From the NCBI GenBank assembly GCA_903884535.1, contig CAISEZ010000120.1, positions 1-64,000 on the forward strand: a stretch of 64,000 bases of DNA, in the 5' to 3' direction. This stretch comes from an uncultured Verrucomicrobia subdivision 3 bacterium (lineage in GTDB: Bacteria; Verrucomicrobiota; Verrucomicrobiia; Limisphaerales; UBA11358). Positions within the stretch are counted from its first letter, which is position 1. The number at the start of each line of letters is the position of its first letter. The notes below the pieces were generated by a model. That model made no database searches. It had not been told where the DNA came from and saw nothing but the letters and a program-made list of their open reading frames with translations. Position numbers and translations under genes: made by a program. Shown in pieces: positions 5,595 through 9,330 of the stretch.

Positions 5595-6572
5595 ATGAAA
5601 TTTTTTCGCAAATTTTTCACGATGCCGCTGATTTTATCGGCCGGCATTTTTGCTGGCGGCGTCGCACCGGGTGAAACGAACACTGCGGTGACTGCCGACA
5701 ATTTTATTTTACCACCGCCGGTGACGGTCGAAACAGCGCGCGGATTTTACAATGCCGGCACGGACAAGTTGCGCGCCGGGAAATGGGACGATGCCGAGAC
5801 GCTGCTGGAATCGGCGCTCGCCAAACAAGACGAGCGCGTGCAACCGGCGGCGGTGTTCAATCTCGGTCATGTGCGGTTTGCGCAGGGCGTGGACGAATTA
5901 AAAAAATCGCCGCCGGGCGCCGCGCCGCAGAGCCGCGCGGCCACGGCGGACGGCGCGGGTGCCATTCAACAGGCCACGGCGGCGCTGGCGGGCAATGATG
6001 TCCAGCAAATGGTGGACGCTTACCTGGCCGGTCGCGGCGTGCGCAAAGAATTGCGCGCGGCGGCGAAAGCGGTTCGGCGAGCGATGGAGCAACACGGCAA
6101 AACGTTGATCAAATGGCGGCGGTCGCTGGATGATTTCAAAAGTGTGGCGGAGTTGAATCCCGCCGACACCAACGCGGTGCACAACGCGGAAGTGGTCGAG
6201 CAGGCCATCGCGAAACTGGTGGACAGTTTGCGCGAGCTGCAGCAGTCGGCCGCGCCGCTGGGCGGCAAACAGTCGCAATTGAACGAGCTGTTGCAAAAGT
6301 TGAAAGGCAAAATTCCCGCGCCGAACATGCCGCCGGGGGCGTCGGGCGGCAAGGACGACGAAGAAGGCGATGACGGCAAACTGCCGACGCCGGAATCGCT
6401 GACCGGGCAGGAGGAAGCGGATAAAAGCGGCAATGGCCAGGAAATGACTTTGAAAATTTCCGCCGAGCAGGCCGGCCAGTTGATGAACAGCATTCAGCCG
6501 GACGGAAAACAATTGCCGATGGGCCAGGGCGAGCCGGGCCAGCCCAAAAACCGTTCCGGGCGAATCTGGTGA
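5595..6572 (+). CDS. batC: BatC-like TPR protein with acidic C-terminal tail
   Basis: A 325-residue exported protein. After a signal peptide (FTMPLILSAGIFAGGVA) comes a TPR-like helical part starting with FYNAGTDKLRAGKWDDAE, the typical element-consuming tetratricopeptide motif. A second helical region covers about 130-230. An acidic, low-complexity stretch (KDDEEGDDG, about 250-262) precedes a Gly/Gln/Pro-rich tail. In other Bat operons BatC is a periplasmic TPR protein that forms a complex with BatB. Position between the second VWA protein and BatD supports that role. Its stop overlaps a GTG six bases before the chosen batD start. Confidence 0.78.
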   Translation: MKFFRKFFTMPLILSAGIFAGGVAPGETNTAVTADNFILPPPVTVETARGFYNAGTDKLRAGKWDDAETLLESALAKQDERVQPAAVFNLGHVRFAQGVDELKKSPPGAAPQSRAATADGAGAIQQATAALAGNDVQQMVDAYLAGRGVRKELRAAAKAVRRAMEQHGKTLIKWRRSLDDFKSVAELNPADTNAVHNAEVVEQAIAKLVDSLRELQQSAAPLGGKQSQLNELLQKLKGKIPAPNMPPGASGGKDDEEGDDGKLPTPESLTGQEEADKSGNGQEMTLKISAEQAGQLMNSIQPDGKQLPMGQGEPGQPKNRSGRIW

Positions 6573-6574
6573 AC

Positions 6575-8401
6575 ATGCGCTTAAAAATTTTCATTTTGCT
6601 GCTGCTGGCGTCCGCCAGACCCAGCCCGCCCGCGCATGCCCAGATGCTGGTGAATCCGTCGGCGGAGCAACTGATGCAGATCGTGCGTTCGCAGCCGGCG
6701 GTGGATATTGCCGCGCCAGTCACGGCGACGGCGTCCTTCGATCCGCCGCAGGTTCGGCCCGGCGAGAAAGCCGTTTACCGCGTGGTCTTCAATGCGACGG
6801 CGGTCTCGGTGAACCTGCCAAAAATAATTCCCGCGCCGCCGGGATTGCAAATCCGTTTAAATTGCAGCGGCCAGACGATGCAGCCCGTCGGCGGCGAATA
6901 TCAAAACTTTGCGACGTTTGATTACGACGTCCGCGCCGCGGCGCCGGGAGAATTCACGATGCCGGAATTCTCGGCGGAAATTTATGGCAAACCGGTGGCG
7001 ATTCCGGCGGCGCAATTGGTAGTGAAAACGGATTTGCCGGAGCCGCACGAACCGGCGCGGCAACTGCTGGTCGAGCCGTCCGCAACGAACGTTTTTGTCG
7101 GCGAAGTTTTCAACGTCAGCGTGCTGCTGCCCGCGACGGCGGCCGGCGCCGTCGAAGGCGTGTCCGACATTCAGTTGAATGGCGACGGTTTTGTGGTGGA
7201 TAAAAATTCGGTGCGACAATCCATCCGCGCGGTGGTAACGGCGGGCCGGAATAGCACAGCTTATATTTTTGAGGCCAGTCTGACGCCGATCGCCGCCGGC
7301 AAAGTAAATCTGTCGGCGCAAGGTTTCACGGCCGGCATGAATTTTGGCGGGCCGATTTCCATCACCGGCCATCTCACCATACCCGGCGGGCCGCCCAAAA
7401 TGATCCTGCTCGATTCCGAACCGGTCGCGATCAACGTGCGGCCGCTGCCGGGCGAACGCGAATTGCCCGGCTTTTTGGGCGCGGTCGGCAACTATGCCTG
7501 CGACCCGCCCAGCCTTGCGACAAACGTTTTGAAGGTTGGCGAGCCGGTGCAGTTGAGCATCGTCATTCACGGCCCGAACAATTTGAGCCGGGTCAATCCG
7601 CCGCTGCCGCCGCGCGCCGATGGCTGGCAGATTTTTCCAGCGGAACGCGGCGGAATCAGCGGCGGCGCAAAGGGTCCGGGCGCGAGTTTCAAATACACCT
7701 TGATTCCGCTGACGACGGCCGTGAGCACCACGCCCGCGCTGCCGTTCAGTTGTTTTGATCCGGTGGGTGGCAAATATATTGACCTTACGATTCCGTCGTT
7801 GCCGGTCACCGTGCTGGCCGACGCAATGCAAACGAACGTCGACGCGGCGCTGATGCTTGCCGAAAACACCGCCGAGGCGGATCAGAAAACCGGCTTGAGC
7901 CAGCTCGCTTCATCGCCCGGCTGGTCGGCGGGCGGATTGGTGCCGCTGCAATTGCGCGGCTGGTTTCCGCTCATGCAAATTCTGCCGGCGCTCGGTTTTG
8001 GTGGCCTGTGGTGGTGGGACCGCCGCCGGCGTTTTCTCGAAGCACATCCGGAGATTGTCCGCCGGCGCGAGGCGCGGCGCGCGCTTCGGCGCGAACGGCG
8101 TTGGCTTGAACAGGCCGCCGCGAGCGGTGACGCGACCAGGTTTGTCCGGCACGCGATCAGCGCGCTGCAAATCGCCAGCGCGCCGCATTATCCGGCGACT
8201 CCGCGCGCCCTGGTCTGCGGCGATGTTTTGCAAATCCTCACCGCCGCGGAACGCGCCGGAAATTCCAGCGACTTGGTGCGCCGCTTTTTCGCCGCCGCCG
8301 ATGCCGCCGCATTTGCCAATCGGGCGGAATCTCAAACCGCGCTGCTCGCCGAGCAAAATGCGTTGCGGGAAATTCTGCAAAAACTGGAGGCGCGCCTGTG
8401 A
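6575..8401 (+). CDS. batD: BatD-like protein (oxygen-tolerance family)
   Basis: A 608-residue exported protein with an N-terminal signal peptide ending near AHA, several beta-sandwich repeats, and one transmembrane helix at about 462-480 (WFPLMQILPALGFGG). A basic, Arg-rich cytoplasmic helical tail follows. The first domain carries the BatD feature VTATASFDPPQVRPGEKAVY. BatD proteins are inner-membrane anchored with a large periplasmic portion and belong to the Bat complex. ATG at 6575 is preferred; a GTG at 6569 overlaps the batC stop and would add two residues. The stop overlaps the GTG of the next gene (GTGA). Confidence 0.82.
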   Translation: MRLKIFILLLLASARPSPPAHAQMLVNPSAEQLMQIVRSQPAVDIAAPVTATASFDPPQVRPGEKAVYRVVFNATAVSVNLPKIIPAPPGLQIRLNCSGQTMQPVGGEYQNFATFDYDVRAAAPGEFTMPEFSAEIYGKPVAIPAAQLVVKTDLPEPHEPARQLLVEPSATNVFVGEVFNVSVLLPATAAGAVEGVSDIQLNGDGFVVDKNSVRQSIRAVVTAGRNSTAYIFEASLTPIAAGKVNLSAQGFTAGMNFGGPISITGHLTIPGGPPKMILLDSEPVAINVRPLPGERELPGFLGAVGNYACDPPSLATNVLKVGEPVQLSIVIHGPNNLSRVNPPLPPRADGWQIFPAERGGISGGAKGPGASFKYTLIPLTTAVSTTPALPFSCFDPVGGKYIDLTIPSLPVTVLADAMQTNVDAALMLAENTAEADQKTGLSQLASSPGWSAGGLVPLQLRGWFPLMQILPALGFGGLWWWDRRRRFLEAHPEIVRRREARRALRRERRWLEQAAASGDATRFVRHAISALQIASAPHYPATPRALVCGDVLQILTAAERAGNSSDLVRRFFAAADAAAFANRAESQTALLAEQNALREILQKLEARL

Positions 8402-9330
8402 ATTTTAAAATTAAACTCGAAAACCGCCGCTGGCCATCGCCAAAGAATGTTGGGCAGGCTTTCCAGCCTGCCGGTGTGGGCAACTTTCCAGTTGCCCGTT
8501 TCTGCCAACACCGGACTGGAAAGTCCGGTGAACCGGCAGGCTGGAAAGCCTGCCCGACCGGCGTTTGCCTCGGCTTCACACCTTGTAACTTCGGGACTCG
8601 GGTCAAAATTTATTTTATCTGGCTGCTGGCAATGCTGGCGGTCACGCAATATATTTTTGCCGCCGGTGAAACCCGTTTTCAGACCGGCGTCGCCGCTTAC
8701 GCCGCCGGACAATTTGAGCCGGCAGCACAGGCCTTCACCGATGCGCTCGCGGAACAAACTGCGCCGGGAACCCTGGTCAATCTCGGGCTAGCGGACTGGC
8801 GCTGCGGGCGCACCGGCGAGGCGCTGCTCGTTTGGCAACAGGCCGCGTGGCTCGATCCGTTCAACCGCGCCGCGCGGGAGAATCTGGTTTATGCGCGGGA
8901 CGCGGCGGCGGTGAATCTGCCCGAATTGACCTGGTTTGAAGAGGCTTCGACCTGGCTGCCGGCGAATTGGTGGACGTGGCTCGCGGGCGTCAGCTTGTGG
9001 CTGGCGGTGGCGCTAGTGACGGTGCCGGGATTTTTGCGGTGGCGCAAAGCCGGCTGGCATCAAACCGTGGCCGCGCTGGCGCTCGGCGTTTTTCTGGCGA
9101 GCCTCGCGCCGGCCGCCGGAATTTTCACGCGGTCAAAAATCGCCATTGTCACGGATAAAAACGCGGCGCTCCGCCTGACGCCCACGCAGGCGGCGGAAGT
9201 GATCGCGGCGTTGCCGCTAGGCGAACCGTTGCGCGAACTGCGCTCACGCGGCAATTATCTTTTCGTCCGCACGCAAAACGGCAGCGGCTGGGTCGAGCGC
9301 AAGCAGGTCGGATTTTTGTGCCCGAAATGA
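8398..9330 (+). CDS. batE: BatE-like TPR/SH3 protein with a palindromic repeat in its 5' coding region
   Basis: A 310-residue frame. From about residue 70 it has the BatE layout: signal or anchor helix (IYFIWLLAMLAVTQYIFAAG), TPR repeats from FQTGVAAYAAGQFEPAAQ, two transmembrane helices at about 193-240, and a C-terminal SH3-like domain ending GSGWVERKQVGFL. The GTG at 8398 overlaps the batD stop. Between that GTG and the hydrophobic helix, about 45 residues (GQAFQPAG ... AGWKACPT) are encoded by a hairpin repeat. No in-frame ATG lies between repeat and helix except one inside the helix at about 8632. Either the repeat inserted in frame and is translated, or the true start is an unusual downstream codon. 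It closes the Bat operon, converging with the mannonate dehydratase gene 27 bases later. Confidence 0.75.
   Translation: MNFKIKLENRRWPSPKNVGQAFQPAGVGNFPVARFCQHRTGKSGEPAGWKACPTGVCLGFTPCNFGTRVKIYFIWLLAMLAVTQYIFAAGETRFQTGVAAYAAGQFEPAAQAFTDALAEQTAPGTLVNLGLADWRCGRTGEALLVWQQAAWLDPFNRAARENLVYARDAAAVNLPELTWFEEASTWLPANWWTWLAGVSLWLAVALVTVPGFLRWRKAGWHQTVAALALGVFLASLAPAAGIFTRSKIAIVTDKNAALRLTPTQAAEVIAALPLGEPLRELRSRGNYLFVRTQNGSGWVERKQVGFLCPK
8452..8555. repeat. Four-hairpin palindromic element with constant TTCC/GGAA loops
   Basis: The element is bounded by perfect 23-bp inverted arms (8452-8474 and 8533-8555). Each arm is itself a hairpin: GGCAGGCT-TTCC-AGCCTGCC on the left and GGCAGGCT-GGAA-AGCCTGCC on the right. 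Between them lie two further hairpins with different stems but the same loops: GGGCAACT-TTCC-AGTTGCCC (8478-8497) and CACCGGACT-GGAA-AGTCCGGTG (8509-8530). Stems vary with full compensation while loops stay fixed. It lies inside the batE reading frame. No transposase is present; it resembles a REP/BIME-like non-autonomous repeat. Confidence 0.85.

Follow-up and report, generated by a model that had tools for sequence, protein, structure and literature searches.

We begin with the question of what a run of four hairpins is doing close to the start of a protein gene in an uncultured Verrucomicrobia subdivision 3 bacterium. The window analysed here is a stretch of 64,000 nucleotides (assembly GCA_903884535.1, contig CAISEZ010000120.1, positions 1 to 64,000). 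The hairpins form a near-perfect palindrome of 110 bp (8449-8558) whose loops read TTCC, TTCC, GGAA and GGAA, and all four are fully paired, as the original prediction had called them; it had also placed the element within a coding frame, and the element does lie inside an ORF of 310 aa (8398-9330). The inverted arms are real, while their size has to be corrected, from a perfect 23 bp to 27 nt each with one mismatch (8449-8475 and 8532-8558, 56 nt apart), of which the inner 24 nt are perfect. Because each outer hairpin is the reverse complement of the other, the element has three different stems and not four; the claim that stems differ between units therefore holds for three stems, the outer pair sharing one. 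Likewise the loops, said to be always TTCC or GGAA, are so in this copy, but TTCG and TTCT also occur in the family. Folded as single-stranded DNA, the element reaches -56.9 kcal/mol against -22.5 +/- 3.1 kcal/mol for dinucleotide shuffles (z = -11.3), and the alternative folds are the four hairpins or a single long stem crowned by both inner hairpins. The parts are collected in Table 1.

Table 1. Features of the element and its gene (window positions; lower case, stem; upper case, loop)
Feature	Position	Strand	Remark
Four-hairpin element, palindromic, head-to-head dimer of two GTAG-type REP units	8449..8558	.	Arms, hairpins, about 20 dispersed and aligned copies
GTTG, degenerate GTAG tag of left REP unit	8449..8452	+	GTAG in most other copies
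Hairpin 1, left unit: ggcaggct-TTCC-agcctgcc	8453..8472	+	
GGT linker, hairpin 1 to hairpin 2	8473..8475	+	Recurrent in aligned copies
Hairpin 2, left unit: gggcaact-TTCC-agttgccc	8478..8497	+	Stem differs among copies, pairing kept
Spacer between the two units	8498..8508	.	Length and sequence differ among copies
Hairpin 2, right unit: caccggact-GGAA-agtccggtg	8509..8530	-	
Hairpin 1, right unit: ggcaggct-GGAA-agcctgcc	8535..8554	-	
CGAC, reverse complement of GTCG, degenerate GTAG tag of right REP unit	8555..8558	-	CTAC in most other copies
batE-like gene, insert between codon 6 and hydrophobic leader	8398..9330	+	TPR and SH3_3, both under Pfam cut-off
batD-like gene upstream, stop overlapping the batE-like start	6569..8401	+	PF13584 BatD, E 2.2e-13
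Whole 189-bp (63-codon) insert in batE-like gene	8416..8604	.	Element plus repeat-like flanks of about 33 bp and about 46 bp

The next question is "does the element exist elsewhere in its own genome?" We search that genome (G000; 3.9 Mb in 165 contigs, 93.6% complete) with patterns and BLAST. About 20 full or partial copies are found by BLAST on many contigs, several of them near contig ends, and searching with an 18-mer from the outer hairpin and allowing one mismatch gives 22 matches, while the reversed control gives none. The original prediction was to be given up if the element proved unique in the genome and its loop were not conserved elsewhere; the copies are instead dispersed and have the same loops. 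The aligned copies keep the order of the four hairpins, and most of them end in GTAG...CTAC where the window copy has GTTG...CGAC. The long palindrome of an inverted REP pair, the layout of the REPIN/BIME kind, is present in the window copy and on contigs C1, C70, C64 and C107, while the loop is TTCG in the copies at C36, C70:1358 and C106. The copies are mostly extragenic, 9-105 bp past a gene end, with about 2 of the 19 examined lying inside plausible genes by a rough coding test. Other GTAG-tagged hairpins (GTAGCCGCGGACGTAAGTCCGCTCA; copies around CCAGCGTCACGCTGG) stand beside element copies on C42, C5, C36 and C151, from which it appears that REP families nest in one another.

The hairpin order and the GTAG...CTAC ends define the unit as GTAG, hairpin 1, GGT and hairpin 2. 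Judged from the aligned copies, the element is a dimer in which two such units stand head to head around a variable spacer. As in GTAG-type REPs, the tag stands 5' of a GC-rich palindrome (in 131 of 144 half-elements), and the copies are dispersed and mainly extragenic. A GTAG-type REP has a single stem-loop of 20-40 nt, however, and since the present unit has two hairpins and about 50 nt, we term it a variant. By these features the element is classed as a REP dimer, of the REPIN/BIME kind and of a two-hairpin variety.

We turn our attention to the systems already described. The text of Di Nocera et al. (2013, PMC3733652) describes GTAG-type REPs with this tag and this arrangement in dimers, and the likeness extends to the GTAG foot, the short perfect palindrome, the complementary stem variants, the head-to-head dimers, the location (mostly close past gene ends, with some in frame in genes, including DNA-repair genes) and the occurrence in Verrucomicrobia (Opitutus terrae). 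By that text, the families have one stem-loop, while here each unit has two hairpins with a shared loop sequence and a GGT linker. It is possible that the element is the same as one of the Opitutus REP families of that paper; set apart from them by text descriptions and not by consensus sequences, the two-hairpin variety is apparently new to the literature. A degenerate GTAG-1 unit with a second stem-loop in P. putida and P. fluorescens (PMC3733652, Fig. 8B) also lies beside a tyrosine transposase gene and is repeated in the genome, but the text calls its second stem-loop unrelated to the first, whereas both hairpins here share the TTCC loop. REPINs and BIMEs, and the 'REPtrons' of RAYTs (Bertels and Rainey 2011, PMC3116915; Nunvar et al. 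2010, PMC2817692), are alike in their dispersed, inverted REP pair that forms one long hairpin and in a cognate RAYT gene that has these repeats at its flanks; the present element differs in having four hairpins and not two, a copy number that is low for a REP (about 20 per genome) and a RAYT missing from its own assembly. RAYTs bind and cut GTAG-tagged single-stranded REPs, and those of group 3 depend on loop positions in perfect-stem REPs (PMC8266576). The REPs of the group 3 TnpA-REP of Stenotrophomonas and Marinomonas (Corneloup et al. 2021, PMC8266576) share the perfect stems but have a single hairpin, with a 3-nt loop in Stenotrophomonas and no second hairpin.

Beyond the window's genome, more copies are found in congeners. 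Exact matches to the 22 bases of GTAGNGCAGGCTTTCCAGCCTGC are found, among those listed, in bins assigned to Verrucomicrobia subdivision 3, Limisphaerales, Acidobacteria gp7, Anaerolineae, Planctomycetes, Nitrospinota and Deltaproteobacteria, labels that may mislead because bins can be contaminated. Two contigs classed as viral hold several exact REP copies each (IMG/VR 3300042090_003220, with L303, L306 and L311; 3300005613_000244, with L302, L308 and L310); these contigs may be stretches of host DNA or proviruses and not free viruses.

Which transposase could serve such an element? In the window's own assembly, 93.6% complete, the search for a RAYT of the element-flanked clade described below gives no match. 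The only Y1_Tnp match there, on C130, is a protein of the IS200 type whose gene lies between copies of another GTAG palindrome, and it was therefore not taken as the mobiliser. This gene (L061 3777-4648) is flanked by GTAG-cccacRg hairpins and has on either side a copy of the first ~44 bp of lpxB, as if the start of lpxB had been duplicated by the insertion. A search of 125 element-bearing stretches with 26 IS200-type and related seeds, which are the wrong class for RAYTs, also gave no match. With RAYT-class seeds, three RAYTs are found on element-bearing contigs, two of them beside the element (L236, which is G009:C81, and L225, in a deltaproteobacterial bin); the third (L300), 3.6 kb from the element, is left out of the count. 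Most element loci of other genomes have no RAYT nearby, which is expected for dispersed REPs and is uninformative.

The L236 RAYT reaches 93.1 bits against the NCBIfam model NF047646 for REP-associated tyrosine transposases, above the cut-off of 80, and matches 'TnpArep' (PDB accession code: 4er8) at E 2.1e-6 in an alignment that takes in the HUH and tyrosine regions. Its gene, at L236:6082-6804 on the minus strand, is flanked on both sides by the element. TTCC/GGAA hairpins lie within a few hundred bases of RAYTs in eight congeners (G009, which is JAJXXW01; G061; G060; G031; G008, which is CAIJGS01; G030; G025; and G066), on both sides in most of the eight, and these RAYTs are 62-100% identical to that of L236. 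Hairpin arrays stand on both sides of the RAYT gene in G060 and G030, with complete four-hairpin dimers in G060. Beside other, more distant RAYTs, TTCC hairpins were found at none of the 19 loci examined. The nearest sister RAYTs (G021, G064) have GTAG-cgcaggcg-TCCC/TCTC-cgcctgcg-GGTTGC followed by a second hairpin with a TCT loop, so the layout is kept and the loops are changed. The TTCC-flanked congeners form one clade with a support of 95/95, in a tree that does not include G066 and G064 and in which the long deltaproteobacterial row falls apart from the clade.

Two of these loci have features of their own. At G009:C81, a tandem array of eight four-hairpin dimers with a period of about 138 bp (L236 6860-7875) lies directly upstream of the RAYT gene, its loops being TTCC in some copies and TTCG in others. 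In the deltaproteobacterial bin, the hairpin-flanked RAYT gene is fused in frame to a downstream NF001617 (PRK00407)-like domain (L225 6692-7780).

Copy number follows the same transposase. Five or more hairpin-1 copies are found in 7 of the 10 genomes whose RAYT is 62% identical or more and in 1 of the 39 without such a RAYT, the one being the window's genome; this split is fairer than the 7/8 against 1/41 of a Fisher comparison, whose RAYT-positive set was partly chosen by flanks, and neither is a true probability because the genomes are related. Taken together, the RAYT flanks, the clade and the copy-number pattern make a specific RAYT clade the partner of the element. The congeners hold what is expected of a REPtron, a REP-class HUH one-tyrosine transposase flanked by the same REP, while the cognate RAYT expected in the same genome is missing from that of the window. 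The window's genome is the one copy-rich genome without that RAYT, and either its copies are orphaned or the gene lies in an assembly gap. The original prediction, that a REP-associated transposase-like protein or a nuclease perhaps recognises the element and that a RAYT gene should be sought, is supported by the NF047646-positive RAYT flanked by the element in eight congeneric genomes, though the gene was not found in the window's own assembly, and recognition of the loop by it would be an extrapolation from the sequences.

With a probability of about 0.86, we read the element as a non-autonomous mobile GTAG-REP dimer that is, or formerly was, moved as single-stranded DNA by the HUH one-tyrosine RAYT of the clade that it flanks in sister species. 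Movement as single-stranded DNA is what we infer; dispersal, tag, dimer layout, pairing, the link to a RAYT clade, and filled and empty sites can be read in the genomes directly. According to this model, the palindrome would extrude when single-stranded, for example on the lagging-strand template. The RAYT would then bind the folded hairpins together with the GTAG tag; it would read the TTCC loop, which is fixed, and require the stem merely as a stem, a step suggested by the conservation pattern and by the published group 3 RAYTs. By analogy with other RAYTs, for which cutting and strand transfer are established in vitro, it would cut next to the unit and transfer the strand to a new site. Most copies would come to rest shortly past the ends of genes, and some within genes and in frame, where they are indeed seen; in the window, the insertion would have taken place after codon 6 of the batE-like gene, adding 63 codons.

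The loop-reading step deserves a separate examination. We collect 148 distinct half-elements from all fetched loci, selected by the tag, a paired hairpin 1 and two loop words only. Over seven positions of hairpin 2, the Watson-Crick pairing is 96%, compared with 19-29% when the partner is slid by 1-3 bases and 45-85% by position (pairs 1-7) when the 3' letters are dealt anew; since the half-elements are related, the pairing counts are not independent events. The 7-nt stem of hairpin 2 occurs in 37 versions, whereas 143 of the 148 halves have TTCC as loop 2, a count that is partly set by the search because the anchor admitted only TTCC or TTCG there. Hairpin 1 is less variable, and its loop is TTCC in 116 halves, TTCT in 21 and TTCG in 11. 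The telling contrast is that of many stems with one loop. It fits the finding that certain loop positions tolerate no mutation in group 3 REPs (PMC8266576), to the extent that the analogy holds. We tentatively propose, at less than even odds, a bipartite loop-coded signal, in which the RAYT clade would read the loop and not the stem: the stems of two hairpins in tandem would be free to vary, and both hairpins would have the same fixed loop, which changes with the transposase clade (TTCC here; TCYC in the sister).

Quasi-palindrome correction is a known mutational process, and the stem covariation may have arisen in this way, with template switching or gene conversion in the palindrome mending the hairpins. 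This alternative competes with loop reading and not with mobility, and it draws on the close relationship of the copies, whose pair counts are not independent. We consider it unlikely: mending would not fix the loop, which in hairpin 2 stays the same across the 37 stem variants, the loop differs by RAYT clade, and the dispersal of the copies is left unexplained.

The site in the batE-like gene can be compared with insert-free orthologs. The congeners start with MNFKIKKYLALML (G010) and VNFKIKKYLVLIL (G001), that is MNFKIKKYL... and VNFKIKKYL..., whereas the window gene has MNFKIK, 63 residues and then the leader (K)IYFIWLLAML; the borders of the insert in Table 1 are inferred from this ortholog alignment. 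As its flanks belong to the 189-bp insert, the four-hairpin element is the core of a larger inserted piece in batE, and similar flanks lie beside five other copies (C50, C64, C107, C74 and C130). The second intragenic copy is a bare GTAG...CTAC dimer of 106 bp (C70:42731-42836) in an OGG-type 8-oxoguanine DNA glycosylase gene (L066, C70:42296-43243), where it adds about 36 residues in frame within the HhH-GPD domain. The G021 orthologue has no insert and is 87-88% identical on both sides, while those of G022 and G025 have other palindromic inserts in the same place, as if this were a tolerant landing place. Protein genes of Rickettsia also contain palindromic inserts in frame, the Rickettsia palindromic elements, but only these two in-frame copies are found in the window's genome.

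The length of the batE insert raises another explanation, in which a longer MITE with terminal inverted repeats (AACCCGAACTCCGAAGTGG...) was moved by some other transposase and the REP dimer was its passenger. An insert of 189 bp and not 110, and the same flanks beside the copies on C50, C64 and C107 (on both sides in C107), would agree with this. The glycosylase gene argues the other way, as the complete dimer is present there, bare, and absent from orthologs. Furthermore, only five places in the genome match the flank pattern, and one of these (C102) is outside the listed element copies; most copies (C1, both on C70, C28, C71 and others) have no such flanks; and no transposase with these ends was found. 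A passenger role is thus very improbable, and the batE insert, being longer than the REP dimer, may have travelled with another repeat or have landed in one. Least probable of all is a role in RNA, where the transcribed hairpin array would tune transcription, stability or translation of the bat and other operons: its very stable fold and its usual place shortly past gene ends, where REPs of other bacteria act on mRNA according to the text of PMC3733652, speak for it, but the near symmetry gives the same structure from both strands, no Rfam family is reached at gathering score (the only hits, miRNA hairpin models far below threshold, were rejected), the presence of the element tracks the RAYT clade and not particular genes, and the batE and OGG sites are not conserved between species, so that RNA may at most be a later co-option.

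A mobile-type REP dimer such as this extends REP/RAYT pairs to uncultured Verrucomicrobia, with the same REP word appearing, among the matches listed, in bins of Acidobacteria, Chloroflexi, Planctomycetes and Deltaproteobacteria. The in-frame copies in the batE-like and DNA glycosylase genes are a route to added protein segments and can mislead the annotation of an N-terminus. The main surprise, as far as the repeats themselves tell, is that the loop stays the same over many stems and differs in the repeats of the sister transposase. For the question of how RAYTs distinguish their own REPs from others, the dozens of stems with one loop, together with REPs of sister RAYTs that keep the layout and change the loop, make loop reading directly testable. 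If true, loop-coded bipartite recognition would be a type of signal undescribed for REP elements.
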